This document shows positions 24,662 through 56,819 of a stretch of 64,000 nucleotides of DNA, piece by piece. The notes beneath the pieces are model-generated. The model saw nothing but the letters and a program-made list of their open reading frames with translations. It was not told where the DNA came from and made no database searches. How positions within the stretch are numbered: the stretch's first letter is position 1; every line of letters starts with the position of its first letter. The position numbers were made by a program, and so were the translations under genes. This DNA comes from Thuidium tamariscinum (Eukaryota; Streptophyta; Bryopsida; Hypnales; Thuidiaceae): positions 29,778,689 through 29,842,688 of the forward strand of contig OX344753.2 of assembly GCA_947034885.2 (NCBI GenBank), given 5' to 3'.

Positions 24662-24787
24662 GCGTTTAGCCTGGGCTGGTGAGGGGTGGTCTAGCCCCCA
24701 TTTCAACCCCCCATTAGATCTTCCGGAAAAAGGTGGGGGGGGCTAAAATTTTTACCTACTTTTGGAACCACCAGCCAAGGCTAAAGC
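24662..24787. mobile_element. MITE interrupted by the left edge of the inverted duplication
   Basis: Imperfect terminal inverted repeats: GCGTTTAGCCTGGGCTGGT (24662-24680) and, inverted, GCTTTAGCCTTGGCTGGT (24770-24787). The copy here is complete. The counterpart at 56694-56800 keeps only the second terminus and stops exactly inside the first, so the duplication edge cuts through the element. A related TTAGCCCCCC...GGGGGGCTAAA motif lies at 34659-34708. Confidence 0.65.
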
Positions 24788-25077
24788 GGATTGTTTATCT
24801 GGGGCAAAATCATATTTTCTTATAAAAAAAAGAATTTTCAAACTTTAATTTGGATTAATTTGCTCCCTCAACAATGAGTTCCATGGATGAATAACATTGA
24901 ATACATTCAATAATTCCGTTGTAATAGTAAATGAAAACTCTTGCAAATTTAGATGCAATCCAACAGTACTCGAGTGGATTAAAATGGAACACGATTGAAA
25001 TGGGATTCTTGTTGGTCCTCTGAGACATGGAACATTTATTAAAATGAATACAATTTACAAAAATAAAATCAAAGATT

Positions 25078-26460
25078 CTATATATATCCTCCACCTGCCA
25101 CGTGGGTCCTCATCGTGTCAAGGACATCACTCGTTGCCGAGCTTTCTATATTTCTGTCTATAGGAAATACTCTCTTGAGAGTGGCCTTGACATTGTTAAA
25201 AGCGGCACCTACTTTAGCTCCAATGCGCACAATAGCAGCAGCCGCAACCATATGCGATCCACTGCCTTTCTCTAGCCCTTCGAGGTAGCTGAGTACACTT
25301 GGATCATCAAAATAGTCGTTAAGTTTGACACGAATGACCACGGTATCTCTGAACCTCGGGAACGCTATCTCTATCAACCATCCTTCCAATAATTTACACA
25401 AACCAGGCAATGAATCAATCTCTTCACCTTCTTCTGAGTATGAGTACACAGAATTCACAACCGCGGGGTCACAATATGGTGATTTCTTGTCTTCTAGGCC
25501 TAGCCATGTGCGACAATCACTCACCTCCCCTACTAGCAAAGCACAAATTCTTCTCTCAAGGACAAACTCAAGGTGGGGATTTGATATTTCAGTGTTAGAC
25601 AGGGATGGGTCAGCTTGTTGGAGCTGGAGAAATAACGCATTTGCCTCTTGAATCAAACACGGAGTCTTTGCAACAAAGCCTTCAACCACATGCGCTAGTG
25701 CTGCCGCATACACTTCAGAGCTGTCAGCAGGGATATTGCTTGGTGTGGCCAAAAAAAGGGCAATTTGCAACAATAAATTGGTCTACGATTAATGCCTCTC
25801 TGAATGGAGTTAAAACAAAACATTTCTAAGGGTATAAGCTAAAATTGCACAACTTAGAAAAGTAATAAGCTCCTTAGCCCCCCAAAGGACCAGTTTCATT
25901 GCCACATGGTAAACACCATTTTTTAGCTGCATTTTGCTCTTTAAAAGATATTCAAGTTCCAATCTTAGAGCACATAGAGCTTGCAGTAATATACTTGCAA
26001 ACATAGGAGGCAGTCATACAAATCAAAAATTTATTCTAGTTGAATATTGTATGTTTAAAATACATGAAATAGGCAAACACTATTGATGAAGATGAGGTAC
26101 CTGCTCTGCAGCAATCATGAGAGAAAAGGCTTCCTTCATCAACTGCTCTCGACTTAGCCCATCTAGTATGTACAAGCTTCAAATTTTCATAATAGAAAGT
26201 ATCCCCCGTTCGATACTTCCAGTTTGCGCAATTGAACATCGTCTAATAGAGCAAAGTCGGAGAGAGAAAATCGGATGAGCGACAATTGAATATTGAGAAA
26301 AGTTTGACAAAAAAGAGAGAATTTGAAGTTGGATCATTGTTACTGACCTTCGCAAAATTGCATCCGTTGTGAACTCGAGCTCTTCTTTCTTTTCCAACAA
26401 AAGCTCGGTGACTTGCAACTGGGAAGGTTTTGGAGGACCTGGCTCCAAACCCTAGATGCG
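25078..26460 (-). pseudogene. ARC6/PARC6-like plastid-division gene fragment, left-arm copy
   Basis: Mirror image of 55018-56400, where the exons are described. The frame 25078-25773 encodes the same 231-residue segment with ATPSNIPADS, LLVGEVSDCRTWLGL, LPGLCKLLEGWL, FPRFRDT and AAAIVRIGA. As in the other copy, the splice acceptor expected before this exon reads CAA instead of CAG (25765-25767 on the minus strand), and the gene stops well short of the membrane-spanning and C-terminal parts of ARC6 proteins. Two identical broken copies mean the damage preceded the duplication. Confidence 0.75.
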
Positions 26461-26718
26461 ACAAGACGATGACACTCACATAAATACAAGTTTGATTAGT
26501 ATTGCAGTGGATGTGTCCTCATTGGCGGGGAGATCCCGTCAGGGCACTCTTGCCAATTCCAAGGGGTAGATGCATACTACGTTGTACCAATATGGATTGT
26601 CACAATCCTTAATTCAGTAGGATGTTTTGGAATTCCTATAATTGTTTCAAATAGGAAAAAATTGTGCAATATAAAAAAGGACTCATTTTCATGTTGTATA
26701 CTTCATTATCTATGCATT

Positions 26719-29700
26719 TGTGAGCGCTTCTAACTCCACCCTCAAGCTAGAAGTTTATCACACAGGTCTTGTGTGTAATTGAGTTTTTTCTCTGATTGGG
26801 TATTAAAAGAGAGCCTTCCAAGCAATGAACTCTTTTAGTCACGTGTTTAAGTGTTTCTAATCTAATGTTATGGTTAAAGTTCAACTAATTTTCTCTATCC
26901 TATTTGATGTTATCGGTTGAAATTGTACCTAGTTTTAATTCCAAGCATTTGGTAAAAAGAAACTTAATAGTAAAACAATGAGAAAGAAATCAAATGTGAG
27001 CGGTTTGCCTCCTCTGCGTAAATCTCCATAGTCCCGTCGTCGAACATCATCATGTGTAAATATTCTCCCACAACCTCGCCATCAAAATCATCCCGGCTCT
27101 CTATCTAATTCATAGTTATTCTTACGTTGTTGGTCAATTAAATCTACCCTGGTTAAAAGGAAACTAACGGTTATGTAACGCTAATTTAATTGCGTAATTC
27201 TTTTAATTCCTAAATCCCCGGTAATTAGAAAATATTACAATTCTAGTTAGCCTACTTATTTTGTTAATGCTCTATTCTAAATAAATCAACGGAAATCTAA
27301 TGGTTAGCTATTTGTTGTTTTTAGTTTTTATTTTGGTTCTAAATTGATATTATAAATTCCAAATGAATTCAATAGTAATATTCTAAAGAAATTAATATTT
27401 TATTCCCAAGGGTCAACCCCCGAAGAATAAGAATCAAGTTCAATAGTGTTATTCCTCAACAATGAATTTTTTAATGGAATTTGCTTCACTTGTTAGGATT
27501 CCTTCGCCTTAATCTTCCTAATCTTTCCCTCCTCCTATTTCATTTTAGTTTTGGAGTGTTTTGCAACAACTTTGAGGAAGAGATATGGCTATGGCAGTAG
27601 AATGTGAGTGAAGCTTAGTGAAGAATTTGTGAAATCTTAAAAATTAGATTTGTGTGAAAATCAACGAAAATTGGTGGGGTTGTGGCTCCAAGTGCTAATC
27701 CAATGATTTTCTAAGAAATCAAGTTTTTGTGATATCATGTGACTTTGAGTTTTGCACTCACCGATTTGGCCTGGACTCTTTGGATTCCCCAGCCGTCCCG
27801 ACTCCCCAGTCTCCCGCTTTAGTCTCCGACTACCCAGTTTAGGTGCTCTGATCCCGTTCGGCAGCTCTGATACCCGTTTGGGATACTCTGATACCTGTTT
27901 GGGGTTCTTCATTCCGCTCAATTGCCGAGCTGGCCTTTCGGGGCTCTCCCTTACCGCTCAGTTGTCGAGTTGGCCCTGGCCGGGGCCTTTGGCTGCTTGG
28001 TTGAGGCCTTGGTTTTTTTGGGGGGTTTTTGGATTTTCTTTTAAGAATAACACGGAACTTTTTAATCTAATTAATGTATAAAATAAGGGTTTTTTTTTGG
28101 TGGTGATGCTAATAAGGGTCTAATTCTAGTTGACTAAATTCTATTGCGCGAGTGTAGCAAATGCATAAGTAGCAATCTAACACTATGTCATGGTCTGGTG
28201 GGATTTTTGATACAACAGCCTTAATGCCATCAATGACTACGTGGATGATTGGAACATGGGAATGCAAGGATAGTTGGTGAATCTTTGTCAATATATCCGA
28301 TGCTGGACCTATGTAATTCCAATTATCAATTTGGTGAACAACGAATGTTAGAGTTCCACCAGCTCTCCCCGATGTTAATGGGAGGTGCTATAGCTTCGCC
28401 GTATGGAAGTTCTTTCAATAGTATTCTATGAATTTTATTTGCAAAAGGAGGTATACATGACAATGTTTAACCGAACTTTCACTTTAAATTCTTAAAATTT
28501 CATAGTATTTCAAGATTTTGTCACCAAAGGAGGTACACATGACAGTGTTTAAATCGCACTTTGGAACTCAATGCTTGAAATGTCCACGATCCAATGGTTA
28601 GCATGAAATAAAGGCTTAGCCTCTAATGTAGAGAGAGAAAATAAGGGTCTATTGAAGGGGCCCTAGGCCTTCAATACTTAACAAAAAACACACTAAGAAC
28701 TTGGCCAAGATCCTTGGTTGAAGCAGTGCTCCGACTATGTCGGTAGCACAAACAAGAGTGTAGGAACAAAGTGTCAGTGCACTAAAGAAAAGGGTATTGG
28801 CAACCTCGAGGGGGGCCCTTATATACCCGTGGCTAGGCCCCTCTCGGTAATTGCTAGTGAAAACACTTTGTTACTTTCCATCCTAAACTATCCTAATGTA
28901 ATTTCAAAATAATATTTGTTTAATGGTGCAAATTTCTAAAAACATCCCCATTTGGCTAACGAAATCTTTAGCCAAATCAAATCCAAGATCTTAGCCCAAG
29001 ATATTTTGGAATTAATCCTAATTTACGTAGATATTTTGCAAATTAACCAAAAGTCATTTCGAAAATTGTCTTTCTTTAGTCCAAAGATGGATTTTTACGC
29101 AAGAAAGAGATCTTGAACAAATCCAATCTTTGATTTTCCAAGAGATATTTCCAAAATCACTCCTAATTAACCGCAATTAATGATTAAAAAGTCAAATTAA
29201 GAGTTGACCCTCTCTATCTTTTAAGGAACAACCCAAAACAGAAAACCGTCTGCGCCATAGACCCCAATTAGTCTAAAGGACCCCTTACCCCTTACTCCTA
29301 GGTCGTTTGCGCGCCCAAATTGGAATTACGGTAATTTCAACTAAAAGTCAAAAATCTAACTTCTAAGATTTGCGCATTTTGATGAATCTATCAGGCCAGG
29401 GTAGTTAGGAATGTCCGTGAGAGTAAGGAACAACTCCTTATTTGCGACAATCGGACATCATTCGCTCCTGATACGTCGGTCAATCCGCTGCCAACTTGTA
29501 AATTCCGTTGAAATTTGATGTCGATGCCGGTTCTGGTGGTTGGGAATGTCAAAATGTCTTCAAACTTGACTGGGCGCTTATTAAGCACACAAAAACTTGT
29601 CCTAATTTTTAGTGATATTTTACCGCATCATACGTAACTTCTATGAATTTATGAACATTGCTATGTGCGGTTGACTTCCCATGGAGTCAACATGGAATTT

Positions 29701-30379
29701 CGGAAAAATACGAAATAAATTGGGTAACATCTAGGAAACTTCTAGATTCTTGGTATAAGTCCCACGCGACCTTGCACTATTCTAATTTTAGTAATTTAGA
29801 ATTACTTTGCCCAATTGGACAATTTAATTCCCGATGCCCGGGAATCTTGGACAATTGTTTGATTCTTGTTCGCTCCTGGCATGCTCCTACCCTTGGAACA
29901 CCTTTCTGTAGTCTTCAATCTCCAATCCTCCATCTTTCATTTTGTAAAGCTCCAATTCTCTAAGCCTTTTGTAATTGTTTTGCCTTTAAATCCAATTTGT
30001 TCCACAATTGAATTTAAGCCTTGGTAAATCTCCTAGGTTCGTCGTAGACTCTTTTGGCTTAGTTAGTATGTCACGTGCATCCTTAAAAGGTTGATTTTGC
30101 ACAGACAGACACAAGGACTGATTAACTCTCGATTCCTTAATTCTCTTGGAACTCCTAAATCTTCACAAAATCTTACTTTGGAGACTTAGAATGATAGAAA
30201 TTCCTAGAATTGGGAATTTTCCACCTTCTAAGTTGGTTTTCCACCATTTTGGCATAGACTAACACCAAAACTCCTTCAACACTCTTTTTATGTCTTTTTC
30301 TTGTATATTTCAGCTGATTTTCGCTATTTAATCGCGAAAAATCGATCCAGAGTCCTGAGTGCCATCTTGAGGGCTCATA
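26719..30379 (-). mobile_element. Solo LTR, 3.66 kb, left-arm copy
   Basis: LTR-type termini (TG...CA, the outer TG changed to TA at the 30379 end) with a perfect 5-bp target duplication (GCATT at 26714-26718 and 30380-30384 on the plus strand). No internal repeat of the termini was seen, so this is read as one very long LTR without internal domain. A TATATAAG promoter box lies at 28818-28825 on the minus strand. The copy is identical to 51099-54759 and clearly diverged from 38275-42197. A fossil; family uncertain, long LTRs of this size suggest a Ty3-like lineage. Confidence 0.7.
28818..28825 (-). promoter_or_regulatory. TATA box inside the left-arm solo LTR
   Basis: TATATAAG followed by GGGCCCCCCTCGAGG, conserved in all three LTR copies, which is the layout expected for an LTR promoter. 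Confidence 0.5.
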
Positions 30380-33300
30380 GCATTGCAAAAGAATTTTTGT
30401 CCAAAAAGTTTATATTCTATTTGTAAAGGACTTTTATATAGACTCTTTATCTACTGTCACAGTCCATAGCATTCACCATAAAGACTCATTGTTCAATAAA
30501 AAATTCAAATATTTTGCAAAAGAAGGAATCATATTTAAGTAGGGTTATATATGATAAAATGCTTAGGTTTAAAATATGTTGAATTAGACACCTAAATTTG
30601 TAGATTTGGACTATTATCTATCCAGAATTGCCACCAAATTTTGGGGATTGATTTGACAGATTTAAAGTTAAAATTTTGATATGTTGTCTTCACTAAATGC
30701 TCATACAAGTGTTTATCTAGAATGGTATTTTTTTTCAAATCATTTTCTTATCATTTTCAACAACTTTTGAACAATTGAATCCATCCTATGTATAAAATGC
30801 CATTAAAAATGGACTAAAATGGAGCCACTTTTGGCATAGCGTAGTATGCATTTGCCCCAAGGTGTCGTGCTCCTGCCCCTGCTCTCCGTCCAACCAACCT
30901 CTAAGTAGATATCCTAATGGAGAATGGACGGGGCTGGGACGCCGACAACGAATTCAATTCCTGTTCTTGGGCTTGTTTAGGATTAAGTTGCATTTGAAGG
31001 TTGAATAAGGCATTAGCTAACAACCGTTTGAAAGAATTGATGTTATACTTTCAAACAAGGGTATCACTGGAAATGAAAAAAACTCAATAAGAAGATTGAA
31101 ATAGTATGATTTGATAAAAAAATACTTTTGCTACACTAGGGTTTGATAAGTGGCAATAGGGTTTCGGACATCAATTGCCGGCAAAAATTGTATGGGTTTA
31201 ACACAGAGGTCTACACTAAAATGATCCCCAAAAGGTTCCTTTGCAAAACACAAGTTACAAAGCTCTCCAACTTCTGACATTTCTACATCTTTATTCACAG
31301 TAATGTACATGAGAGACAACAACTGGAAGCTTAAATTCTAGATCACTCAATCAACAGAAAAAATTAAGTACAAGCTATGTGCTCAGATGATGAAATAACC
31401 TTGTTTGGCAGAGGTAGCATGGACTTGCAGAAGACAAACAAGAGCTCGTTGGGAAAGCTAGTACAAAAAGCTGGGATGCAAAAGCTGGTATTCCTAGTAG
31501 AGAAGCTGTGACATAGAACACCATTTACTTCAAAAATGAGAAACTCCAATTTTGCCTCTAGAAATTTATCACGGCCAGAATTTCTCAGTTCTACGCACCT
31601 TTTTTTTTTAATGGAAATCAAAAGCGACCAATAAACTAATTGGGTTCTGGAGAAAGTAAAATTCCCCCTAGAATTGACAACTTTGAGTGGTCGCTTGTGA
31701 TGATAACATCCACCGAAAGTGGTTCGATTTGCACCAACAGTTTAGAACTAATTTCAAGGGAGGTGGAATATCTACAAATATTTCCATCTACTAAAATTTT
31801 GCAATGAATTTCTTTTGAAAGAGTCATCATTTGTTTCTCTAGACATATTAAAGTTGCAATTTTTTCCTTTATCATCATAATTTTAAAAATTATTATAGTA
31901 GTACAATAATTCTTTACAAATCAATTTCTTGCAAATATTACAAGAAATCATGTATATAAGGATAATGTGTTATTTTTCAAGATAATTAGGCAGCTTACTA
32001 CGGATGGAGTTTTTATTTTTTTTCTTTGAAATTTTGACACAATGTGTATCCAAGGAGTAGCTTTAGGGCCCAACAATTTTCATAACTTTTGACTTTGTGG
32101 ATAAAAAGTTATGGCATGATATATCAATTTGTTTGCTCGGCGGGCAGCCCGGGCAGATGAAAAAACTTTTTCAAAAAAACTTTTTTTTGAAAAGTGAAAT
32201 TTCAAATTGATTCTTTAGGCTTATACAGACATGGGAAGCTTTGAATCAATCCATTCTGATCAATGAGTCAAAAGTTATGAAGATTTTGAGTTTGAGGTAG
32301 TTTGCGGCCAGTTACAGAATCTCTACAGCACAAAAAAAGTTTGAAATTCTTCATTTAATTCAATTTTTCATATTTTTGGAAAAAAAGAAAAGAAAAAGGT
32401 GTAGATTGTTTATTTCAACATTTTAACCATTGGGATTGAAAATTTTCAATTCCATGAATAAAATGTTCACAATTTAGTATTTTGACTCATTTTTTACTGC
32501 TTTCTACTTACTTATTTTTTCCTATATGTTGTACAATTCCAAATGGTTTGAAATTTTCTGAGAATGTAGCCAACTTGCATTGAAGTATGAATTCTAAGAG
32601 TAACCACCATTTTGAATTTTTTTTCACACAAATGTGACCTTGTGAAGTGCAACTGCCCGTATTTTTGCAGGGATAAAGAAACAGTTTTTGTCAATTCAAA
32701 TGCTTATATCTTTTAATCTACATGGTGGAAATTTTTGAAATTTTTTCCACATGTTTACAAACCACCTTACTAAAAGATCCTATGGTTACATGAGTCAAAA
32801 ATGTGTTTTTAAAAAAAAATGCTCTCGTATTAGAAATGGCAGTTTTGGAGCATTTTTTTTTGGTGAAAATGCTGTTAGGGGTTTAGGGGTTAATAATTCA
32901 CATATAATTGATACAAAAGATAAAGCATTAGCACATACTATATAACAATCTTCATAGAAATATATAAAGGAAAATATAAAATATGGACAATTTTGTAGTG
33001 ACCTTGTTTAGTAGTTGGTTATTTATACAAAGGGAGAATTGTTTGACTAATTCTTTTTTAGGATTTTAAAAAATAAGGGATAAAAATAGAAAAAAATACT
33101 CAACATTAAAGTAAAATTATTATAAGAATATAAATGAAGTGGTACATTCAAAAATACTCTTGCTTTAAGTTTCTTCTTAAATTTTTTTAGAACTAAACTT
33201 AAGTTAATTCCTAAATTCTCAAGGCACCCAAATGTGGTGTCAAAGAAACTTTGAAGTTAAATAAAACCTTACTAAATTTCTATTTTTAACAGTTTATGTT

Positions 33301-33663
33301 TTTGGAAGATTTTCTTTCAAGTCCACTTTTAGCATTAGTAATTTGATATAGAAAATGAATGACAGTGATTCCTCTACTGAAGATTTAGTTGACGGGTACC
33401 CCTTGCAATCTTGACATCCCCTAGTGTTAAGGACATTTGGAAATGAGCCTCAAATACACTAGATCTTAGAAATACAATCACATTAAAAATTCATGTAAGA
33501 AAATTGTAGAGTGGATTTTGAGAAGACATAAATTGATGAGGGTTAAACTTGTTAGGCCCTTCAACCTCATATTATTTTTGTGATCAACAATTTAGATTTG
33601 ATATGCAAAAATTGAACTCAAAGATTTTCATAGTTTTTACACCTTCATGATGAAACATTATAA
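30380..33663. other. Inner AT-rich part of the left arm
   Basis: Mirror of 47815-51098. Several small frames are present on the minus strand (31131-31878) but without dependable homology. A TTAACCCC-type MITE end is visible at 32876-32893. Nothing else is supported. Confidence 0.5.
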
Positions 33664-33953
33664 TCTTCTGAATAGTGAAAGTCTTTTATTTCATCCTTAT
33701 TCCATCTTTTAGATATTTTGATACTTTGAAGATATTATAAAAATGAGCTAATATGTATAAATATAAAAATAGGATAAAATAAATAGGAGCATGCTAAAAA
33801 CAATGGAAATCAAAATAATTGATAGTTAATACAATAAAAATAAAAATAAAAATGTACTTCTAATTCTACATTAATTTTTTTTAAATAAATAAAGTAAAAT
33901 AAAATGAAGTAGATTATTGATAGTAATGTTTTTTTACTTTAGAGTGCTTCAAA

Positions 33954-34057
<104 letters not shown>

Positions 34058-34155
34058 TTCATAGTCATTGAAAACTTCAAGAACATTGCTCTATATTTGT
34101 TGATAGTTTTTTTGAATCTTTCTTATTTTTGTAGCTATAACCCTATATAATAATA

Positions 34156-34389
34156 ATGTCTTCAAAAACACACATTTGTATCCTTTGTAATCAAACTTTT
34201 AATTTAGAAGAGCAATGGAAAGCTCATGAGGGGGGTAAAAGACACAAACGTATTTCTAAAATTGCCTTAGGAGAAGAAACTAAAGGACAAAAACAAAATA
34301 CTTCTACTAATAGTAACATAATTGATGAAGATATACAAAATTACGAGCATTACGAATATCAATTCCTACAATCGTCAATAAAGTTATAA
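34156..34389 (+). CDS. Small single-zinc-finger protein (U1/matrin-like C2H2), left copy
   Basis: The 77-codon frame starts MSSKTHICILCNQTFNLEEQ and contains C-x2-C-x12-H-x5-H (CILC ... WKAHEGGKRH), the spacing of U1/matrin-type C2H2 fingers that bind RNA or DNA, followed by a polar tail. The inverted copy at 34942-35148 (minus) is the same gene. It differs by a 7-base insertion just after the codons for LEEQ and keeps one A that the left copy has lost before the tail, so the two tails differ. Neither copy is obviously intact. Function unknown; probably belongs to the surrounding inverted-repeat element. Confidence 0.55.
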   Translation: MSSKTHICILCNQTFNLEEQWKAHEGGKRHKRISKIALGEETKGQKQNTSTNSNIIDEDIQNYEHYEYQFLQSSIKL

Positions 34390-34730
34390 GGTGTCAAAAA
34401 TTAAAAAATGCAAGTTGTGACTTAGATATATCAAAAATGACAAAACTAACTTCAGAGTTCAGAGTTCTGGAGGGGATTGTTGTAGATAGTGTGAACAGAT
34501 CAGGTGACCACTATCCGACTAGCATAGCTAAAGAGGAATTGGAGTCTACAGACCAAAGAATTGGAAATAAGTCCTTAGGAAAATCCCTCTTGGACTAGCA
34601 CAAAACTAAATCTTGCAGAGACTCAAGGCACCCAGCTATTTTAATTTAAACATTGGCAACTTTGGAGCTCTTAGCCCCCCGGGCTAAATAGAAGCAGGGG
34701 GGCTAAACTTGTATGTGAACAGTGGTTGCG

Positions 34731-35148
34731 AGGGTCGTGAGTCTTTCTCCGCGACAGCAGCCTAGTTGCTCTTTCTGAAATCATCCATCTGGTTGAGGAA
34801 GTACAGAGGCAATTCTTGAGCAGCGCCCTTCAATCTAATTTTTGAATTTCTTTATTGTCAAATTCTCTAAAATTGAATCATAATGATGTTTGTTAGTCTT
34901 TTCTTTGGCTCTCCTAATCTCATCCATTTCTTTTGATATTCGTAATGCTTGTAATTTTTGTATATCTTCATCAATTATGTTACTATTAGTAGAAGTATTT
35001 TGTTTTTGTCCTTTAGTTTCTTCTCCTAAGGCAATTTTAGAAATACGTTTGTGTCTTTTACCCCCCTCATGAGCTTTCCATTGCTCATTTGCTCTTCTAA
35101 ATTAAAAGTTTGATTACAAAGGATACAAATGTGTGTTTTTGAAGACAT
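34731..35148 (-). pseudogene. Zinc-finger protein gene, right inverted copy
   Basis: Reading on the minus strand from the ATG at 35146-35148, the sequence repeats the zinc-finger frame of 34156-34389. A 7-base insertion (around 35085-35092) shifts the frame inside the finger. Beyond it, the tail frame (containing SKEMDEIRRAKEKTNKHHYD) runs on to a stop codon near 34846, longer than in the left copy. Confidence 0.55.
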
Positions 35149-35246
35149 TATTATTATATAGGGTTATAGCTACAAAAATAAGAAAGATTCAAAAAAACTA
35201 TCAACAAATATAGAGCAATGTTCTTGAAGTTTTCAATGACTATGAA

Positions 35247-35284
<38 letters not shown>

Positions 35285-35569
35285 TTTGAAGCACTCTAAA
35301 GTAAAAAAACATTACTATCAATAATCTACTTCATTTTATTTTACTTTATTTATTTAAAAAAAATTAATGTAGAATTAGAAGTATATTTTTATTTTTATTT
35401 TTATTGTATTAACTATCAATTATTTTGATTTCCATTTTTTTTAGCATGCTCCTATTTATTTTATCCTATTTTTATATTTATACATATTAGCTCATTTTTA
35501 TAATATCTTCAAAGTATCAAAATATCTAAAAGATGGAATAAGGATGAAATAAAAGACTTTCAATATTCA

Positions 35570-36739
35570 AAGGTTCATATTTCATCCATTCCATTTTTTG
35601 GTAAATAGCACATATGTTGATTGTGCAACATTTTTGTTATAATGGAATTAACATTCTTCTGTACAAATTTATAGATTTTTTAATTTGAAAAGAATCTGAT
35701 GAAATTAATATTTAAATAATACAGTATTTATAAAAATATAATTTTTTTTACAAAGTAATCTAAAATAAAATTTGAGCTTTTTATATATTAGAGCTCCTAT
35801 ACATGTTATAAGTCATTAAGAAAGTGTAAAAATTTAATCCACAATCAACAATAGAAAGTTAATGGTTTTTATTTTAAATTTAATTATATGATATAATAAT
35901 AATTGATGATAGTACAGGAACAAACAATTGAATATATAGAAATAACTTAATAAAGCTAATCCTAAACAATTTGAATTATAAACAATTTATCAAATTTTCC
36001 TTTGAAGCACTTTTTCATAATGAAACTTAGAAAATTATCTTTTGGATCTTGACGTATTTCATAAAATTAAGGGATTAAGCCTATTTAATGTTTAAGAGTC
36101 TATGAATGGTGCCAACAATGTTCCTACTTCCTAGGTTAAACTAGGGGACAACAACGTCTAATACCTTCATTTGAACTTTGTTTACTTTTAAGGTCCCTTG
36201 TTAATTCAAGAGAATTGCAACAGTCATTTGTCGTGACTTCTTTATATGTTACAAATCAATTTTTTAAAATAATCAAAGTACTTCAATATACTCATCATTA
36301 TAGAAAGGTTGAAATCTTTATAAACATATATTTTATAGAATAATCTCAACCATAGGATTACTTTGATTGACTTATTAAAGCCAGGGCATTACCAAAAAAT
36401 TCAGAATTAATATCTCCATCAATTGCAAATTCTATATGATGAACATCAAACTGTGGACTCATATAACTATAAACATAATGCCAAGTAAGTTTCATTAGAA
36501 AGAAAATCAATGGTTCATATTGCTAGAAATAAAATCAAAGGTCCATAAATCAACATTTTAAGGGCTAGAATTAAATTTTTTTGGGAAAAACAATCTTTAA
36601 ATATTCTTCACCGAATTTTTCTCAAGAGACAAGTACAAAAGGCATATAACCCAAGTAGTTGTGGCAACCTAGAACTCACCTAAACAAGTTCTTAAGCAAA
36701 ATACGGGAAGAAGAATCTATTCAATCCCCATTTTTTTTT
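35570..36739. other. AT-rich stretch
   Basis: No coding or repeat structure recognised. Confidence 0.5.
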
Positions 36740-36973: not shown

Positions 36974-36980
36974 TATAAAA
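36974..36980 (+). promoter_or_regulatory. TATA box of element copy 2
   Basis: TATAAAA in the leader region, about 230 bases before the ATG at 37211, matching the arrangement in copy 1. Confidence 0.45.
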
Positions 36981-42197: not shown

Positions 42198-42202
42198 CTC
42201 CA

Positions 42203-44460: not shown

Positions 44461-46144
44461 AAGAAGGAATTGTGCTTTCCTGTGCTACGACAGTAGTTTC
44501 ATATTTTTTTGAAGTTTTTTGAAAAATTAGTTACACAATTTTGAAGTTTACAAAAATTGGTCACCTATCTTCATCAAAAGCAATACCCTTCTAAAATGTG
44601 CAAATTTGAGACACCCGAGAAAGGAAAATGTACCTCTAAATGTATTTTGAACAATATTGGCCCAATAGTACTAAAATCATTCAAAAAGTGGTCGACTGGT
44701 CCTTAAAGGGTTAAATTACATTCTCATAGATTTTATTTTTTTCTATATGAAAATCTTTGATTCATTCAATTTCATTCCATTATATAATAGTTATGAATTT
44801 TTTTTTTCTTTGAACGTAAACCTCATCTTCTTGAACCAAGAACTTAGAGAATTCATAAATGAATGCAAATTTTAAAATTCAATTGTGAATGCATATTCAA
44901 AATGCATAACTGAAGTTGAAATGATTGTAGTGTAAAGATTTTTAGTGAAGTAGGTTTAGAGTCAATTCATTTAACACTATTATTTACTAAATATATATTT
45001 TTATTATAATTTTAATCAAATGAACATTACAATCATAGAATTTAATTTAAAAAAATTATGTAATTCAATTCATGATTTTGTGCATTGAAATGAATTGATA
45101 GAATTTGGAGAAGACTTTTCAGTATTTGAGAATTGAATTTAATATCGAGAATTTAAAAAGAACTCAACATGGTGTATACTGCCTTTAGACAAACAATGTC
45201 ACCATTGGAATTAGAAAATTTTAATTCTATCTTATATCTTAAAAAAACATTGGCTTTTCCTTCTATGTTGTACCTATTTCCACATAATAGTTTTTAAAAG
45301 AAAGAAAATTAAGTTTTATTGTCTTTTTTTTCCTTTTACTCTCAATTCAATTCTCTATTATGAAAATTTGAAGCTTAAATTTTGGAAAGAATATAAGAAT
45401 TAAGTTAAGAAGGTATAAGTGAAATAATCCAATTTTGCAATGTGTTTAGAACTTGTTTTTTACTGGAAAAGTTGATATCTTATAATGTATGTGTTCAAAA
45501 TTTATGCTTCAAGAAATGTGCACGTCTTTATACTAATTAGATGTAAGACTCTATACTTAGATGAGTAGAAGAATTAATTTTGAAACAATTTCAACACTCT
45601 TTGCTATAAGAATAGCAGTTTTGAGTGATTTTTTTAAGCAAGGAGACCTTGGTCCATTATGGGTTAAATAGTATCAAATTTAGTTGTAGGATTGAAAATA
45701 GCCAATTGCAATGGATACAATGCTCTAATCAACAATCTACATGTAATTATTTTCTTATGTTATCTCAAAAAATATTTCAACAATCTTTGCTATAAGAATT
45801 GCAGTTTTGAGTGATTTTCTTAATAAAAAAAGGCCTTGGGTCCTTTAGGGATTAAGTAGTATCAAATATAGTTGTAGGATTGAAAGTTGCAAATTCCAAT
45901 GGATATGATGCTCTAATGAACAATCTACATGTGAGGGCGATAATGTTTTTTTCAAAAATTTTGTAAAATGAGAGACATATAGGAAATTCTCTTCATCTTA
46001 ATATTCTCAATCCATTTGCTCAAAATTGAACAAAATCCCAACATTTAGATAGATTAAATCAATTTTCTTAAAATGTAATTGTACAAATTCAAAGTAGACA
46101 TATTAGAGATGACAGAGGAAAAGAAAACACAACAATATCATGTA
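44461..46144. other. AT-rich stretch with TTAA-type MITE ends
   Basis: No gene. GGTCCTTAAAGGGTTAA at 44698-44714 and similar GGTCC...TTAA motifs near 45650 and 45835 resemble the right ends of the TTAACCCC MITE family seen elsewhere in the window. A tandem duplication is listed separately. Confidence 0.45.
45584..45945. repeat. Tandem duplication, 186-bp unit, two copies
   Basis: TTTCAACA(C/A)TCTTTGCTAT starts each unit (45590 and 45776). The following sequence, including TTGTAGGATTGAAA and AACAATCTACATGT, repeats with scattered substitutions. Each unit contains a GGTCC...TTAA end. Confidence 0.85.
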
Positions 46145-47800
46145 CAGTGGGGTACCAATCAAAATGTCGTTTTCGAATCCGCAGTGAGGAAAATTTCAGC
46201 ACTGCCAACTTTGAAAGCCTCCCGAGAGCTCACAAATTGGTTTTTTACCACGAAAATTTTACCACAGCATCCTCCTATGAAGATACGCTGTTTGTTTGGT
46301 TGTTTGTTTGGATGTTTGTTACGTTGAGATCTCCCGGACCGTGAGTCCCTCGGGTGCGTGTTTGGTACCGTTGGAAAGCCCTCGGTGAGGAGGGGTGCAC
46401 GGGCTTGGTTTTGTAGCATTCCGACGTACGGCGAGAAAGTTATTGAATTTCAAAGTATTTATGGTTCTCAAAAATTAGAAAATTACTTTTACTTTAGTTC
46501 TGACTGTGGCATTGGCACAGGGCACACTAGTCATCTTTAAGTTAGTTATATGTATGCCAAATTTCAAGGCCAAAAGGTTCACAGAAAAAAAGTTATTCAA
46601 AATCTACCAACATGGATAGTGGTGAGAAACATTTCACTACTTTCAACTTTGACACCTTCCTAAGGATTGAGTTTCTTTTCTTTTTCCATGAAAATTTTGT
46701 CATGAAACAATATCCATGTTTTTAATATATATGAAAAATTTCTAGGTAAAAAATGTTTTTGTTAAGGAGATATTTGAAATCTCCCAAAAGGTGTAGTTTT
46801 GAGAAAATTTTCACAATTGCCAACTTTGACACCCTCCCAAGGGCTGAAAAATTTGTTTCTTACCATGAATTTTTTTTGTGAAGTCATCTCTATATTAATA
46901 ATATGTTCTCCAAATTTCAAGTTCAAATGAATTACCAAAAAAAAGATATACAAAATCTCCCAACATGTGTAATTGTGAGGAGGAGTTTTTGAGCCCTTAG
47001 TATAGTGTTATTTTGTGGAGCAAAGTTTGACACAAATGTAAAAACTCAACCTCACAACTACACATGTTGAGAGATTTTGAATCTCTTTTTTTTGGTAAGT
47101 GATTTGAACTTGAAATTTGGAACATATATTATCTAGATAAATTTGATTTTATTCAAAAAAATTCATGTTAAATAGACAAATTTTGAGCCCGTAGGAAGAT
47201 GTCAAAGTTGGCAATAGTGAAAATTTTCTCACAACTATACATGTTGGGAGATTTTGTATATCTTTTTTTTGGTAATTCATTTGAACTTGAAATTTGAAGA
47301 ACATATTATTAATATAGAGATGACTTCACAAAAAAAATTCATGGTAAGAAACAAATTTTTCAGCCCTTGGGAGGGTGTCAAATTTGGCAATTGTGAAAAT
47401 TTTCGCAAAACTACACCTTTTGGGAGATTTCAAATATCTCCTTAACAAAAACTTCTTTTACCTAGAAATTTTTTATACATATTAAAAACATGGATATTGT
47501 TTCATGACAAAATTTTCATGGAAAAAGAAAAGAAAATCAATCCTTAGGAGGTGTCAAAGTTGAAAGTAGTGAAATGTTTCTCACCACTATCCATGTTGGT
47601 AGATTTTGAATAACTTTTTTTCTGTGAATCTTTTGGCCTTGAAATTTGGCATACATATAATTAACTTAAAGATGATGCTGTGGTAAGATTTTCGTGGTAA
47701 AATATCAATTTGTGAACTCTCGGGAGGCTTTCAAAGTTGGTAGTGCTGAAATTCTCCTCACTGCGGATTCGAAAACGACATTTTGATTGTTACCACACTG
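46145..47800. mobile_element. Tc1/mariner-like foldback element
   Basis: Terminal inverted repeats start CAGTGGGGTACCAATC (left) and CAGTGTGGTAACAATC (right, inverted). Both ends abut TA (46143-46144 and 47801-47802), as in Tc1/mariner elements. The similarity between the arms continues almost to the centre near 46972. Each arm is itself a series of diverged ~200-bp modules (GGGAGATTTTG..., CAACTTTGACACC...). The left arm carries an extra ~262 bp (46272-46533) bounded by CATC on both sides, absent from the right arm. No transposase. The small mirrored frames at 46762-46953 and 47254-47445 are by-products of the palindrome. Confidence 0.7.
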
Positions 47801-47814
47801 TACAAATTGAAAGG

Positions 47815-50800
47815 TTATAATGTTTCATCATGAAGGTGTAAAAACTATGAAAATCTTTGAGTTCAATTTTTGCATATCAAATCTAAATTGTTGATCACAA
47901 AAATAATATGAGGTTGAAGGGCCTAACAAGTTTAACCCTCATCAATTTATGTCTTCTCAAAATCCACTCTACAATTTTCTTACATGAATTTTTAATGTGA
48001 TTGTATTTCTAAGATCTAGTGTATTTGAGGCTCATTTCCAAATGTCCTTAACACTAGGGGATGTCAAGATTGCAAGGGGTACCCGTCAACTAAATCTTCA
48101 GTAGAGGAATCACTGTCATTCATTTTCTATATCAAATTACTAATGCTAAAAGTGGACTTGAAAGAAAATCTTCCAAAAACATAAACTGTTAAAAATAGAA
48201 ATTTAGTAAGGTTTTATTTAACTTCAAAGTTTCTTTGACACCACATTTGGGTGCCTTGAGAATTTAGGAATTAACTTAAGTTTAGTTCTAAAAAAATTTA
48301 AGAAGAAACTTAAAGCAAGAGTATTTTTGAATGTACCACTTCATTTATATTCTTATAATAATTTTACTTTAATGTTGAGTATTTTTTTCTATTTTTATCC
48401 CTTATTTTTTAAAATCCTAAAAAAGAATTAGTCAAACAATTCTCCCTTTGTATAAATAACCAACTACTAAACAAGGTCACTACAAAATTGTCCATATTTT
48501 ATATTTTCCTTTATATATTTCTATGAAGATTGTTATATAGTATGTGCTAATGCTTTATCTTTTGTATCAATTATATGTGAATTATTAACCCCTAAACCCC
48601 TAACAGCATTTTCACCAAAAAAAAATGCTCCAAAACTGCCATTTCTAATACGAGAGCATTTTTTTTTAAAAACACATTTTTGACTCATGTAACCATAGGA
48701 TCTTTTAGTAAGGTGGTTTGTAAACATGTGGAAAAAATTTCAAAAATTTCCACCATGTAGATTAAAAGATATAAGCATTTGAATTGACAAAAACTGTTTC
48801 TTTATCCCTGCAAAAATACGGGCAGTTGCACTTCACAAGGTCACATTTGTGTGAAAAAAAATTCAAAATGGTGGTTACTCTTAGAATTCATACTTCAATG
48901 CAAGTTGGCTACATTCTCAGAAAATTTCAAACCATTTGGAATTGTACAACATATAGGAAAAAATAAGTAAGTAGAAAGCAGTAAAAAATGAGTCAAAATA
49001 CTAAATTGTGAACATTTTATTCATGGAATTGAAAATTTTCAATCCCAATGGTTAAAATGTTGAAATAAACAATCTACACCTTTTTCTTTTCTTTTTTTCC
49101 AAAAATATGAAAAATTGAATTAAATGAAGAATTTCAAACTTTTTTTGTGCTGTAGAGATTCTGTAACTGGCCGCAAACTACCTCAAACTCAAAATCTTCA
49201 TAACTTTTGACTCATTGATCAGAATGGATTGATTCAAAGCTTCCCATGTCTGTATAAGCCTAAAGAATCAATTTGAAATTTCACTTTTCAAAAAAAAGTT
49301 TTTTTGAAAAAGTTTTTTCATCTGCCCGGGCTGCCCGCCGAGCAAACAAATTGATATATCATGCCATAACTTTTTATCCACAAAGTCAAAAGTTATGAAA
49401 ATTGTTGGGCCCTAAAGCTACTCCTTGGATACACATTGTGTCAAAATTTCAAAGAAAAAAAATAAAAACTCCATCCGTAGTAAGCTGCCTAATTATCTTG
49501 AAAAATAACACATTATCCTTATATACATGATTTCTTGTAATATTTGCAAGAAATTGATTTGTAAAGAATTATTGTACTACTATAATAATTTTTAAAATTA
49601 TGATGATAAAGGAAAAAATTGCAACTTTAATATGTCTAGAGAAACAAATGATGACTCTTTCAAAAGAAATTCATTGCAAAATTTTAGTAGATGGAAATAT
49701 TTGTAGATATTCCACCTCCCTTGAAATTAGTTCTAAACTGTTGGTGCAAATCGAACCACTTTCGGTGGATGTTATCATCACAAGCGACCACTCAAAGTTG
49801 TCAATTCTAGGGGGAATTTTACTTTCTCCAGAACCCAATTAGTTTATTGGTCGCTTTTGATTTCCATTAAAAAAAAAAGGTGCGTAGAACTGAGAAATTC
49901 TGGCCGTGATAAATTTCTGGAGGCAAAATTGGAGTTTCTCATTTTTGAAGTAAATGGTGTTCTATGTCACAGCTTCTCTACTAGGAATACCAGCTTTTGC
50001 ATCCCAGCTTTTTGTACTAGCTTTCCCAACGAGCTCTTGTTTGTCTTCTGCAAGTCCATGCTACCTCTGCCAAACAAGGTTATTTCATCATCTGAGCACA
50101 TAGCTTGTACTTAATTTTTTCTGTTGATTGAGTGATCTAGAATTTAAGCTTCCAGTTGTTGTCTCTCATGTACATTACTGTGAATAAAGATGTAGAAATG
50201 TCAGAAGTTGGAGAGCTTTGTAACTTGTGTTTTGCAAAGGAACCTTTTGGGGATCATTTTAGTGTAGACCTCTGTGTTAAACCCATACAATTTTTGCCGG
50301 CAATTGATGTCCGAAACCCTATTGCCACTTATCAAACCCTAGTGTAGCAAAAGTATTTTTTTATCAAATCATACTATTTCAATCTTCTTATTGAGTTTTT
50401 TTCATTTCCAGTGATACCCTTGTTTGAAAGTATAACATCAATTCTTTCAAACGGTTGTTAGCTAATGCCTTATTCAACCTTCAAATGCAACTTAATCCTA
50501 AACAAGCCCAAGAACAGGAATTGAATTCGTTGTCGGCGTCCCAGCCCCGTCCATTCTCCATTAGGATATCTACTTAGAGGTTGGTTGGACGGAGAGCAGG
50601 GGCAGGAGCACGACACCTTGGGGCAAATGCATACTACGCTATGCCAAAAGTGGCTCCATTTTAGTCCATTTTTAATGGCATTTTATACATAGGATGGATT
50701 CAATTGTTCAAAAGTTGTTGAAAATGATAAGAAAATGATTTGAAAAAAAATACCATTCTAGATAAACACTTGTATGAGCATTTAGTGAAGACAACATATC

Positions 50801-51098
50801 AAAATTTTAACTTTAAATCTGTCAAATCAATCCCCAAAATTTGGTGGCAATTCTGGATAGATAATAGTCCAAATCTACAAATTTAGGTGTCTAATTCAAC
50901 ATATTTTAAACCTAAGCATTTTATCATATATAACCCTACTTAAATATGATTCCTTCTTTTGCAAAATATTTGAATTTTTTATTGAACAATGAGTCTTTAT
51001 GGTGAATGCTATGGACTGTGACAGTAGATAAAGAGTCTATATAAAAGTCCTTTACAAATAGAATATAAACTTTTTGGACAAAAATTCTTTTGCAATGC
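47815..51098. other. Inner AT-rich part of the right arm
   Basis: Mirror of 30380-33663. Small plus-strand frames at 49600-50347 have no dependable homology. The DNA around 50540-50640 is GC-richer and its AAATGCATACTACG motif recurs inverted near 54900, on the other side of the solo LTR, hinting at an older element into which the LTR inserted. Confidence 0.45.
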
Positions 51099-54000
51099 TA
51101 TGAGCCCTCAAGATGGCACTCAGGACTCTGGATCGATTTTTCGCGATTAAATAGCGAAAATCAGCTGAAATATACAAGAAAAAGACATAAAAAGAGTGTT
51201 GAAGGAGTTTTGGTGTTAGTCTATGCCAAAATGGTGGAAAACCAACTTAGAAGGTGGAAAATTCCCAATTCTAGGAATTTCTATCATTCTAAGTCTCCAA
51301 AGTAAGATTTTGTGAAGATTTAGGAGTTCCAAGAGAATTAAGGAATCGAGAGTTAATCAGTCCTTGTGTCTGTCTGTGCAAAATCAACCTTTTAAGGATG
51401 CACGTGACATACTAACTAAGCCAAAAGAGTCTACGACGAACCTAGGAGATTTACCAAGGCTTAAATTCAATTGTGGAACAAATTGGATTTAAAGGCAAAA
51501 CAATTACAAAAGGCTTAGAGAATTGGAGCTTTACAAAATGAAAGATGGAGGATTGGAGATTGAAGACTACAGAAAGGTGTTCCAAGGGTAGGAGCATGCC
51601 AGGAGCGAACAAGAATCAAACAATTGTCCAAGATTCCCGGGCATCGGGAATTAAATTGTCCAATTGGGCAAAGTAATTCTAAATTACTAAAATTAGAATA
51701 GTGCAAGGTCGCGTGGGACTTATACCAAGAATCTAGAAGTTTCCTAGATGTTACCCAATTTATTTCGTATTTTTCCGAAATTCCATGTTGACTCCATGGG
51801 AAGTCAACCGCACATAGCAATGTTCATAAATTCATAGAAGTTACGTATGATGCGGTAAAATATCACTAAAAATTAGGACAAGTTTTTGTGTGCTTAATAA
51901 GCGCCCAGTCAAGTTTGAAGACATTTTGACATTCCCAACCACCAGAACCGGCATCGACATCAAATTTCAACGGAATTTACAAGTTGGCAGCGGATTGACC
52001 GACGTATCAGGAGCGAATGATGTCCGATTGTCGCAAATAAGGAGTTGTTCCTTACTCTCACGGACATTCCTAACTACCCTGGCCTGATAGATTCATCAAA
52101 ATGCGCAAATCTTAGAAGTTAGATTTTTGACTTTTAGTTGAAATTACCGTAATTCCAATTTGGGCGCGCAAACGACCTAGGAGTAAGGGGTAAGGGGTCC
52201 TTTAGACTAATTGGGGTCTATGGCGCAGACGGTTTTCTGTTTTGGGTTGTTCCTTAAAAGATAGAGAGGGTCAACTCTTAATTTGACTTTTTAATCATTA
52301 ATTGCGGTTAATTAGGAGTGATTTTGGAAATATCTCTTGGAAAATCAAAGATTGGATTTGTTCAAGATCTCTTTCTTGCGTAAAAATCCATCTTTGGACT
52401 AAAGAAAGACAATTTTCGAAATGACTTTTGGTTAATTTGCAAAATATCTACGTAAATTAGGATTAATTCCAAAATATCTTGGGCTAAGATCTTGGATTTG
52501 ATTTGGCTAAAGATTTCGTTAGCCAAATGGGGATGTTTTTAGAAATTTGCACCATTAAACAAATATTATTTTGAAATTACATTAGGATAGTTTAGGATGG
52601 AAAGTAACAAAGTGTTTTCACTAGCAATTACCGAGAGGGGCCTAGCCACGGGTATATAAGGGCCCCCCTCGAGGTTGCCAATACCCTTTTCTTTAGTGCA
52701 CTGACACTTTGTTCCTACACTCTTGTTTGTGCTACCGACATAGTCGGAGCACTGCTTCAACCAAGGATCTTGGCCAAGTTCTTAGTGTGTTTTTTGTTAA
52801 GTATTGAAGGCCTAGGGCCCCTTCAATAGACCCTTATTTTCTCTCTCTACATTAGAGGCTAAGCCTTTATTTCATGCTAACCATTGGATCGTGGACATTT
52901 CAAGCATTGAGTTCCAAAGTGCGATTTAAACACTGTCATGTGTACCTCCTTTGGTGACAAAATCTTGAAATACTATGAAATTTTAAGAATTTAAAGTGAA
53001 AGTTCGGTTAAACATTGTCATGTATACCTCCTTTTGCAAATAAAATTCATAGAATACTATTGAAAGAACTTCCATACGGCGAAGCTATAGCACCTCCCAT
53101 TAACATCGGGGAGAGCTGGTGGAACTCTAACATTCGTTGTTCACCAAATTGATAATTGGAATTACATAGGTCCAGCATCGGATATATTGACAAAGATTCA
53201 CCAACTATCCTTGCATTCCCATGTTCCAATCATCCACGTAGTCATTGATGGCATTAAGGCTGTTGTATCAAAAATCCCACCAGACCATGACATAGTGTTA
53301 GATTGCTACTTATGCATTTGCTACACTCGCGCAATAGAATTTAGTCAACTAGAATTAGACCCTTATTAGCATCACCACCAAAAAAAAACCCTTATTTTAT
53401 ACATTAATTAGATTAAAAAGTTCCGTGTTATTCTTAAAAGAAAATCCAAAAACCCCCCAAAAAAACCAAGGCCTCAACCAAGCAGCCAAAGGCCCCGGCC
53501 AGGGCCAACTCGACAACTGAGCGGTAAGGGAGAGCCCCGAAAGGCCAGCTCGGCAATTGAGCGGAATGAAGAACCCCAAACAGGTATCAGAGTATCCCAA
53601 ACGGGTATCAGAGCTGCCGAACGGGATCAGAGCACCTAAACTGGGTAGTCGGAGACTAAAGCGGGAGACTGGGGAGTCGGGACGGCTGGGGAATCCAAAG
53701 AGTCCAGGCCAAATCGGTGAGTGCAAAACTCAAAGTCACATGATATCACAAAAACTTGATTTCTTAGAAAATCATTGGATTAGCACTTGGAGCCACAACC
53801 CCACCAATTTTCGTTGATTTTCACACAAATCTAATTTTTAAGATTTCACAAATTCTTCACTAAGCTTCACTCACATTCTACTGCCATAGCCATATCTCTT
53901 CCTCAAAGTTGTTGCAAAACACTCCAAAACTAAAATGAAATAGGAGGAGGGAAAGATTAGGAAGATTAAGGCGAAGGAATCCTAACAAGTGAAGCAAATT

Positions 54001-54759
54001 CCATTAAAAAATTCATTGTTGAGGAATAACACTATTGAACTTGATTCTTATTCTTCGGGGGTTGACCCTTGGGAATAAAATATTAATTTCTTTAGAATAT
54101 TACTATTGAATTCATTTGGAATTTATAATATCAATTTAGAACCAAAATAAAAACTAAAAACAACAAATAGCTAACCATTAGATTTCCGTTGATTTATTTA
54201 GAATAGAGCATTAACAAAATAAGTAGGCTAACTAGAATTGTAATATTTTCTAATTACCGGGGATTTAGGAATTAAAAGAATTACGCAATTAAATTAGCGT
54301 TACATAACCGTTAGTTTCCTTTTAACCAGGGTAGATTTAATTGACCAACAACGTAAGAATAACTATGAATTAGATAGAGAGCCGGGATGATTTTGATGGC
54401 GAGGTTGTGGGAGAATATTTACACATGATGATGTTCGACGACGGGACTATGGAGATTTACGCAGAGGAGGCAAACCGCTCACATTTGATTTCTTTCTCAT
54501 TGTTTTACTATTAAGTTTCTTTTTACCAAATGCTTGGAATTAAAACTAGGTACAATTTCAACCGATAACATCAAATAGGATAGAGAAAATTAGTTGAACT
54601 TTAACCATAACATTAGATTAGAAACACTTAAACACGTGACTAAAAGAGTTCATTGCTTGGAAGGCTCTCTTTTAATACCCAATCAGAGAAAAAACTCAAT
54701 TACACACAAGACCTGTGTGATAAACTTCTAGCTTGAGGGTGGAGTTAGAAGCGCTCACA
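51099..54759 (+). mobile_element. Solo LTR, 3.66 kb, right-arm copy
   Basis: Begins TATGAGCCCTCAAG, ends GAAGCGCTCACA and is flanked by AATGC on both sides (51094-51098 and 54760-54764), a perfect 5-bp target duplication. Identical to the left-arm copy. The insertion therefore predates the arm duplication. A fossil; no internal domain. Confidence 0.7.
52653..52660 (+). promoter_or_regulatory. TATA box inside the right-arm solo LTR
   Basis: TATATAAG followed by GGGCCCCCCTCGAGG, as in the other two copies. Confidence 0.5.
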
Positions 54760-55017
54760 AATGCATAGATAATGAAGTATACAACATGAAAATGAGTCCT
54801 TTTTTATATTGCACAATTTTTTCCTATTTGAAACAATTATAGGAATTCCAAAACATCCTACTGAATTAAGGATTGTGACAATCCATATTGGTACAACGTA
54901 GTATGCATCTACCCCTTGGAATTGGCAAGAGTGCCCTGACGGGATCTCCCCGCCAATGAGGACACATCCACTGCAATACTAATCAAACTTGTATTTATGT
55001 GAGTGTCATCGTCTTGT

Positions 55018-56400
55018 CGCATCTAGGGTTTGGAGCCAGGTCCTCCAAAACCTTCCCAGTTGCAAGTCACCGAGCTTTTGTTGGAAAAGAAAGAAGAGCT
55101 CGAGTTCACAACGGATGCAATTTTGCGAAGGTCAGTAACAATGATCCAACTTCAAATTCTCTCTTTTTTGTCAAACTTTTCTCAATATTCAATTGTCGCT
55201 CATCCGATTTTCTCTCTCCGACTTTGCTCTATTAGACGATGTTCAATTGCGCAAACTGGAAGTATCGAACGGGGGATACTTTCTATTATGAAAATTTGAA
55301 GCTTGTACATACTAGATGGGCTAAGTCGAGAGCAGTTGATGAAGGAAGCCTTTTCTCTCATGATTGCTGCAGAGCAGGTACCTCATCTTCATCAATAGTG
55401 TTTGCCTATTTCATGTATTTTAAACATACAATATTCAACTAGAATAAATTTTTGATTTGTATGACTGCCTCCTATGTTTGCAAGTATATTACTGCAAGCT
55501 CTATGTGCTCTAAGATTGGAACTTGAATATCTTTTAAAGAGCAAAATGCAGCTAAAAAATGGTGTTTACCATGTGGCAATGAAACTGGTCCTTTGGGGGG
55601 CTAAGGAGCTTATTACTTTTCTAAGTTGTGCAATTTTAGCTTATACCCTTAGAAATGTTTTGTTTTAACTCCATTCAGAGAGGCATTAATCGTAGACCAA
55701 TTTATTGTTGCAAATTGCCCTTTTTTTGGCCACACCAAGCAATATCCCTGCTGACAGCTCTGAAGTGTATGCGGCAGCACTAGCGCATGTGGTTGAAGGC
55801 TTTGTTGCAAAGACTCCGTGTTTGATTCAAGAGGCAAATGCGTTATTTCTCCAGCTCCAACAAGCTGACCCATCCCTGTCTAACACTGAAATATCAAATC
55901 CCCACCTTGAGTTTGTCCTTGAGAGAAGAATTTGTGCTTTGCTAGTAGGGGAGGTGAGTGATTGTCGCACATGGCTAGGCCTAGAAGACAAGAAATCACC
56001 ATATTGTGACCCCGCGGTTGTGAATTCTGTGTACTCATACTCAGAAGAAGGTGAAGAGATTGATTCATTGCCTGGTTTGTGTAAATTATTGGAAGGATGG
56101 TTGATAGAGATAGCGTTCCCGAGGTTCAGAGATACCGTGGTCATTCGTGTCAAACTTAACGACTATTTTGATGATCCAAGTGTACTCAGCTACCTCGAAG
56201 GGCTAGAGAAAGGCAGTGGATCGCATATGGTTGCGGCTGCTGCTATTGTGCGCATTGGAGCTAAAGTAGGTGCCGCTTTTAACAATGTCAAGGCCACTCT
56301 CAAGAGAGTATTTCCTATAGACAGAAATATAGAAAGCTCGGCAACGAGTGATGTCCTTGACACGATGAGGACCCACGTGGCAGGTGGAGGATATATATAG
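55018..56400 (+). pseudogene. ARC6/PARC6-like plastid-division gene fragment, right-arm copy
   Basis: ARC6 and PARC6 are chloroplast inner-envelope proteins that position the FtsZ ring. Two stretches are recognisable. An exon ending at 55377 encodes GLSREQLMKEAFSLMIAAEQ and is followed by a GT donor. The exon 55714-56400 encodes IALFLATPSNIPADS, LLVGEVSDCRTWLGL, LPGLCKLLEGWL, FPRFRDT, VLSYLEGLE and AAAIVRIGAKV, collinear with the middle of ARC6-type proteins. The acceptor expected at 55711-55713 is CAA, not CAG, so normal splicing would fail. A possible earlier exon (55018-55132, FTTDAILRR) is weak. The J-like N terminus, the membrane segment and the C-terminal domain are absent, and the arm ends 400 bp after the last codon. 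Confidence 0.75.
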
Positions 56401-56819
56401 AATCTTTGATTTTATTTTTGTAAATTGTATTCATTTTAATAAATGTTCCATGTCTCAGAGGACCAACAAGAATCCCATTTCAATCGTGTTCCATTTTAAT
56501 CCACTCGAGTACTGTTGGATTGCATCTAAATTTGCAAGAGTTTTCATTTACTATTACAACGGAATTATTGAATGTATTCAATGTTATTCATCCATGGAAC
56601 TCATTGTTGAGGGAGCAAATTAATCCAAATTAAAGTTTGAAAATTCTTTTTTTTATAAGAAAATATGATTTTGCCCCAGATAAACAATCCGCTTTAGCCT
56701 TGGCTGGTGGTTCCAAAAGTAGGTAAAAATTTTAGCCCCCCCCCCCACCTTTTTCCGGAAGATCTAATGGGGGGTTGAAATGGGGGCTAGACCACCCCTC
56801 TATGGAATACTATATGGCC

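Follow-up and report, generated by a model that had tools for sequence, protein, structure and literature searches.

Two nearly identical 9-kb inverted arms in the moss Thuidium tamariscinum, a probable recent template-switch duplication

Introduction

How do two sequences of 9 kb, pointing in opposite directions and separated by 14 kb of other DNA, come to be almost free of differences? We addressed this question for a 64,000-bp stretch of the genome of the moss Thuidium tamariscinum (hereafter the window; C5:29778689-29842688, where C5 is contig OX344753.2 of a 363-Mb, 19-contig assembly). An earlier note, made from the letters of this DNA, had described a large inverted duplication there and offered three explanations, namely that the arms are very young, are kept identical by gene conversion, or are a product of assembly. 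In this work, we found that the locus is probably the result of a recent, single-event inverted duplication by a replication-based template switch, of the type known as microhomology-mediated break-induced replication (MMBIR) or fold-back. Inverted duplications of this kind are already known from other genomes. Rather than representing a novel type of element, the locus appears to stem from an ordinary accident of copying, and no function is needed to account for it.

Structure of the inverted arms

A BLASTN comparison of the window against itself aligned positions 24681-33667 with the reverse complement of 56800-47811, over 8,990 columns and at 99.944% identity. Together with a global alignment of the two arms (one of them reverse-complemented), this defines a left arm at 24681-33663 (forward strand; 8,983 bp), a right arm at 47815-56800 (reverse strand; 8,986 bp), and a repeat-rich spacer of 14,151 bp at 33664-47814. 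The global alignment contains exactly one substitution, T at 31559 and C at 49919. The other difference is three bases in a G run near 24735, which has 8 G in one arm and 11 G in the other, and the second T/C pair in the BLAST count is position 33664, one base beyond the arm. Both the layout and these two differences agree with what the earlier note had reported; its constant coordinate sum of 81478 holds inward of the G run, whereas a sum of 81481 applies to the outer 54 bp. A match of 9 kb cannot have arisen by chance. A genome search with arm sequence, which covered the stretches 28000-29500 and 24400-26700, recovered both arm copies at a rounded 100%. The locus thus consists of inverted copies on either side of a spacer, as in a fold-back inverted duplication, and the arms are more than 99% identical, as in palindromes of the sex-chromosome type.

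The homology ends abruptly on both sides. Local alignment of the 400 bp past the outer ends gave a score of 19, a value reached by 127 of 300 shuffles, and that of the 400 bp past the inner ends gave 26, reached by 119 of 300.

An assembly product, in which a single arm copy was used at two places or two versions of the same locus were joined head to head, would also yield such a picture. The structure was read from assembled sequence alone; identical repeats are a classical cause of misjoins, and a difference of three G is of the kind typical of sequencing errors. Against this, a simple fold-back read would have no 14-kb spacer, the arm sequence meets four different flanks at its junctions, and the base difference at 31559 distinguishes the copies. 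Moreover, C5 is a chromosome-scale contig of 30.6 Mb, and the window, which stops ~764 kb short of the contig end, contains zero N. Moss shoots are haploid, so there is no second allele that could have been joined. On balance, we consider an assembly product unlikely.

Source copy and breakpoints

The outer end of the arms distinguishes the original from the copy. Two other loci are relatives of the outer arm part, one on C2 (L040; 93%) and one on C3 (L045; 78%), and a third, at C6:16658177 (85%), appears in the search table only, with a match from 24643. Beside the left arm, and only there, lies the end region of a repeat unit (24650-24680, forward strand), where L045 matches from 24650 and L040 from 24655. 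Outward of 24681, the left flank continues with L045 at a score of 22 (0 of 2000 shuffles) and with L040 at a score of 9 (6 of 2000 shuffles), in contrast to the right flank, for which the outward extension scored 0 against either locus. Because both relatives continue past the left outer junction and not past the right one, the left arm is judged to be the source at this end, and the right arm the derived inverted copy, truncated at its outer end inside the repeat end.

This polarity also bears on the possibility of a mobile origin, in which the whole would be a 32-kb transposon whose terminal inverted repeats measure 9 kb, or each arm a separate insertion of a 9-kb element. Such an origin would fit the start of the arm within ~30 bp of a repeat end, the piece of a gene that the arm carries (described below), as gene-capturing transposons do, and the presence in this genome of apparently recently active transposons of the CACTA type. 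The bases upstream of 24681 by which the left copy resembles L040 and L045, however, are missing from the right copy, and the two copies do not both end at an element's own ends. A search up to 7 bp from the ends of the right arm, the left arm, and the whole structure revealed no target-site duplication of 4-12 bp, which speaks against transposition; duplications of 2-3 bp, as in CACTA elements, lie outside this range. In addition, six-frame searches at E up to 0.01 detected no transposase domain in the left arm or spacer, and the outer part of the arm is matched at other loci by dispersed segments rather than by one unit. A mobile origin is therefore very improbable. One specific candidate, a transposon that moved as a whole unit, was ruled out by the truncated right end together with the lack of a 4-12 bp target-site duplication.

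Both inner breakpoints adjoin palindromic elements. At the left inner junction is E1 (33649-35586, unstranded), a palindrome with pieces of a CACTA-type transposon, whose BLAST start lies 15 bp inside the arm. E2 (46141-47804, unstranded) is a palindromic element that ends 10 bp before the right inner junction and has a relative of 88-91% identity on C10. If 33670 is chosen by hand as the start of E1, the distances from the inner junctions to the palindrome ends are 7 and 11 bp. Equal closeness was found in 0.0155% of 200,000 random spacer placements, and in a fraction of 1.5e-5 when draws were independent; this comparison was framed after the positions, including the hand-set one, had been seen.

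Age and near-identity of the arms

One substitution in 8,983 sites corresponds to 1.1e-4 per site (95% limits 2.8e-6 to 6.2e-4), although a short-read polisher could homogenise the arms, so that their identity may be overstated. A literature search gave no usable substitution rate for mosses among the papers listed. If 5e-9 to 9.4e-9 substitutions per site and year are assumed, the point estimate of the age is ~5,900-11,000 years, with limits of ~150 to 62,000 years. The duplication may thus be thousands to tens of thousands of years old.

A yardstick for this near-identity is provided by a CACTA transposon related to E1. Four near-identical copies, on C10, C7, and C2 (twice), start with CACTACTAG. 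These unlinked copies (L017-L020 and L026-L037) are 99.89-99.95% identical over at least 16.4 kb (19.7 kb for the C7/C2 pair; the far ends were not reached), and the 6 pairs among the 4 copies show 9 to 21 base differences per 16.4-19.7 kb, or 0.05-0.11%. According to Pfam, the copy that we examined encodes pieces of a tnp2 transposase (PF02992; 9.9e-31 and 6.6e-26), DUF4218, and a C2H2 zinc finger, the last of which resembles one in E1. The transposon was probably active recently. Since its unlinked copies are nearly as alike as the arms, long copies with very few differences are a normal outcome of recent copying in this genome, and no gene conversion is needed to explain the arms.

Arm-to-arm conversion that holds an old palindrome identical, as on mammalian and willow sex chromosomes, is accordingly a doubtful explanation. 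Homologous recombination is efficient in mosses, and the arms are 99.99% identical even though their DNA is apparently unimportant; both points favour conversion. The accessible part of the willow study offers a precedent (PMC7023750). Weighing on the other side are the abrupt ends with no decayed homology beyond them, the unlinked transposon copies of the same genome, and the lack of any apparently working gene recognised in the arms by Pfam. Of the three explanations offered earlier, very young arms are the one favoured by the data, on account of the abrupt ends, the truncated right copy, and the near-identical CACTA copies. More generally, near-identity of long arms is by itself no sign of gene conversion, as unlinked transposons of this genome are almost as alike.

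Proposed mechanism

We infer that a single event of replication-based copying (MMBIR, fork stalling, or fold-back) produced the right arm. The left arm would have been in place first. A replication fork or broken end may have halted at the end of E2 (47804) and paired with the arm at its inner end (33663), next to palindrome E1, from where ~9 kb would have been copied backwards toward 24681. At that point the template would have been left, and the new strand joined to the sequence that now begins at 56801. A second switch of this sort is expected, as the available part of one MMBIR paper states that an inverted switch needs another for a viable cell (PMC2621351). The spacer lengths given in the accessible text on human fold-back inverted duplications range from 1,866 to 70,466 bp, with 14,779 bp in two cases (PMC3907307). 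The moss spacer of 14,151 bp falls within this range, and the layout fits the human fold-back class.

Several observations weigh against a template switch as a single recent event. Microhomology at the inner junction is weak (AAG plus one mismatch), and longer homology is absent there; none is readable at the outer junction, as this would take the untouched right-hand site. The polarity of the inner end is marginal: a resemblance of the end of E1, running on into the arm, points, like the outer end, to the left arm as the first, and was reached by 62 of 2000 shuffles. The same picture would result if the event were somewhat older and moderate gene conversion had followed it. Furthermore, human fold-back spacers are mostly only a few kb in the part of the source available (PMC3907307).

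If the template-switch duplication is real, the locus is a base-resolved plant example of a young inverted duplication in which the source and the new copy can be told apart at one end, and its breakpoints adjoin palindromes, one of which is built of transposon pieces. The locus would also predict flipping of the spacer through recombination between the arms.

Sequence content of the arms

The earlier note regarded the pseudogenes and AT-rich DNA of the arms as hardly held by selection, and their content, a broken piece of a gene and an old repeat, bears this out. The gene is ARC6, which functions in plastid division. In the left arm, tblastn located a larger exon with an open frame (25081-25782, reverse strand; second copy 55696-56397, forward strand), corresponding to residues 340-557 of the 803-residue relative P0001, and a smaller exon (26098-26166, reverse strand; second copy 55312-55380, forward strand), corresponding to residues 319-341. 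The larger exon matches Pfam PF23468 at 1.8e-63 for the right-arm copy and at 3.1e-61 for the left-arm frame, and at E up to 0.01 the window yielded no ARC6 parts beyond residues 319-557. The piece is altered at 7 of 69 near-invariant sites, whereas the 118 relatives retained out of 120 have between 0 and 6 such changes, the top value of 6 being found in a single row, P0110. Compared with a fuller gene, it has also lost the splice site preceding the large exon.

This fuller ARC6 gene (L041) is located at C2:47.10 Mb, where residues 177-803 were seen, and is 95.3 and 97.0% identical to the arm over two shared stretches. Another ARC6-like gene, L044, lies at C1:30.9 Mb, and the relative of the outer arm at C2:37.63 Mb (L040; 93%) is a further ARC6 fragment. 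The closest named matches of the piece are from mosses, namely Physcomitrium patens (77% identity), Ceratodon purpureus (74%), and Sphagnum magellanicum (64%); the best match overall is at 82%. The arm pieces 24655-26167 and 26194-26563 match L040 and L042 (C2:37.63 and 37.68 Mb), which lie 47 kb apart, a pattern suggestive of a longer unit whose central part was lost.

The second component of the arm is a repeat, X, which was copied with the arm. In the left arm it occupies 26714-30382 on the reverse strand, with boundaries set by eye from the alignment. It ends in TGAGC and GCTCA and has weak 9-bp flanking repeats, also recognised by eye. A third, old copy lies in the spacer (38277-42192, forward strand), inverted relative to that of the left arm and 85, 78, and 71% identical to the arm copy over the aligned pieces. 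X occurs in at least 37 further places in the genome, a lower bound because scoring was limited to 40 of 1345 candidates and did not include the spacer copy. A scan of viral contigs for the X pattern gave 0 matches.

No apparently working gene was recognised in the arm: a six-frame Pfam search of 20000-34900 at E up to 0.01, which would miss genes without a Pfam model, returned only the ARC6 piece there. No known structured RNA or tRNA was found at the thresholds used. A bacterial or viral origin of the DNA was considered and ruled out by the matches to moss proteins. Given that the ARC6 piece is 3-5% off L041, that X copies are 15-29% apart, and that the defects are common to both arms, the content of the arms is far older than their duplication.

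One functional reading, drawn from sequence, is that the arms are a fresh RNA-interference locus, in which paired transcripts would give rise to small RNAs against the true ARC6 gene and the X family. The shared 21-mers are the only support for it. Exact matches in L041 were found for 422 of the 8,963 arm 21-mers, the two exons contributing 254 of 634 and 27 of 49, and 16 of 8,963 were found in the second ARC6-like locus (L044). For X, each of six loci examined shares 234 to 623 of 3,649 21-mers, these loci holding only part of X. We regard such a role as most improbable. If true, a copying accident would have come to regulate both plastid division and a transposon family, and small RNAs against ARC6 would be a possible prediction of the locus.

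Other features of the spacer and flanks

A diverged copy (~94%) of the CACTA transposon (L021; C3:27122500-27132000) contains an inverted 1.17-kb segment, the ends of which (~0.3 and ~0.5 kb) are each present twice in opposite orientation. E1 is a similar fold-back, with 10 mismatches in ~690 partly overlapping columns, gaps aside. The CACTA family may thus be prone to fold-backs.

Also in the spacer, open frames at 37160-38323 (forward strand) encode a protein family of unknown function, with X inserted at its end. The frame at 37211-38044 has 20 relatives and no Pfam model, and the frames of this region read like a putative retroelement gag. A second open frame (42141-43228) lies on the other side of the X insertion and is apparently part of the same gene, split by X.

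Of the genes in the flanks, a GH31 gene (17985-19562) shares 80% identity with Physcomitrium and 78% with Ceratodon, its best match being at 83%; there are also an ENTH gene on the left and a HECT gene on the right. Two further palindromes, at 12636-12906 (271 bp, 96% symmetric) and 24174-24316 (143 bp, 95%), have the size of small fold-back elements. Tandem repeats are present at 5846-6267 (140 bp, 3 copies) and 57239-57325 (21 bp, 4 copies), the latter ~440 bp past the right outer junction.

Comparison with known systems

No comparable inverted duplication or palindrome in a moss was found among the papers listed in the literature searches, which says little. Human Y palindromes have long inverted arms that are more than 99% alike. 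The same is true of the willow palindromes W.P1 and W.P2, in the part of the report available (PMC7023750). The moss arms differ from these sex-chromosome palindromes in having no recognised working gene, no evidence of conversion, and no established link of C5 to a sex chromosome. The likeness suggested by the earlier note is therefore weak.

The maize locus Mu killer is, like the moss locus, an inverted duplication of broken transposon-type sequence and in principle a source of silencing RNA. According to the accessible text, it is compact, with ~1.3 kb duplicated, whereas the moss arms lie 14 kb apart and have no known transcript; that paper itself doubts the long-hairpin model (PMC3440606).

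Closer parallels are found among replication-based rearrangements. As far as the available part of the source describes them, MMBIR and fork stalling with template switching yield an inverted segment with a second switch and ends near pre-existing repeats, as in the moss, although the moss locus has only two new junctions known and little microhomology (PMC2621351). The human fold-back inverted duplications, as presented in the accessible sections, are large (42 Mb in one case) and end in a telomere, translocation, or ring, with spacers of a few kb in most cases, whereas the moss copy is 9 kb, its contig continues for 764 kb, and its inverted microhomology is weak. What they share with the moss locus is the arrangement of inverted copies around a normal-copy spacer, in one instance of close length, an inverted copy toward the nearer contig end, and, in some cases, breakpoints at repeats or inverted sequences (PMC3907307).

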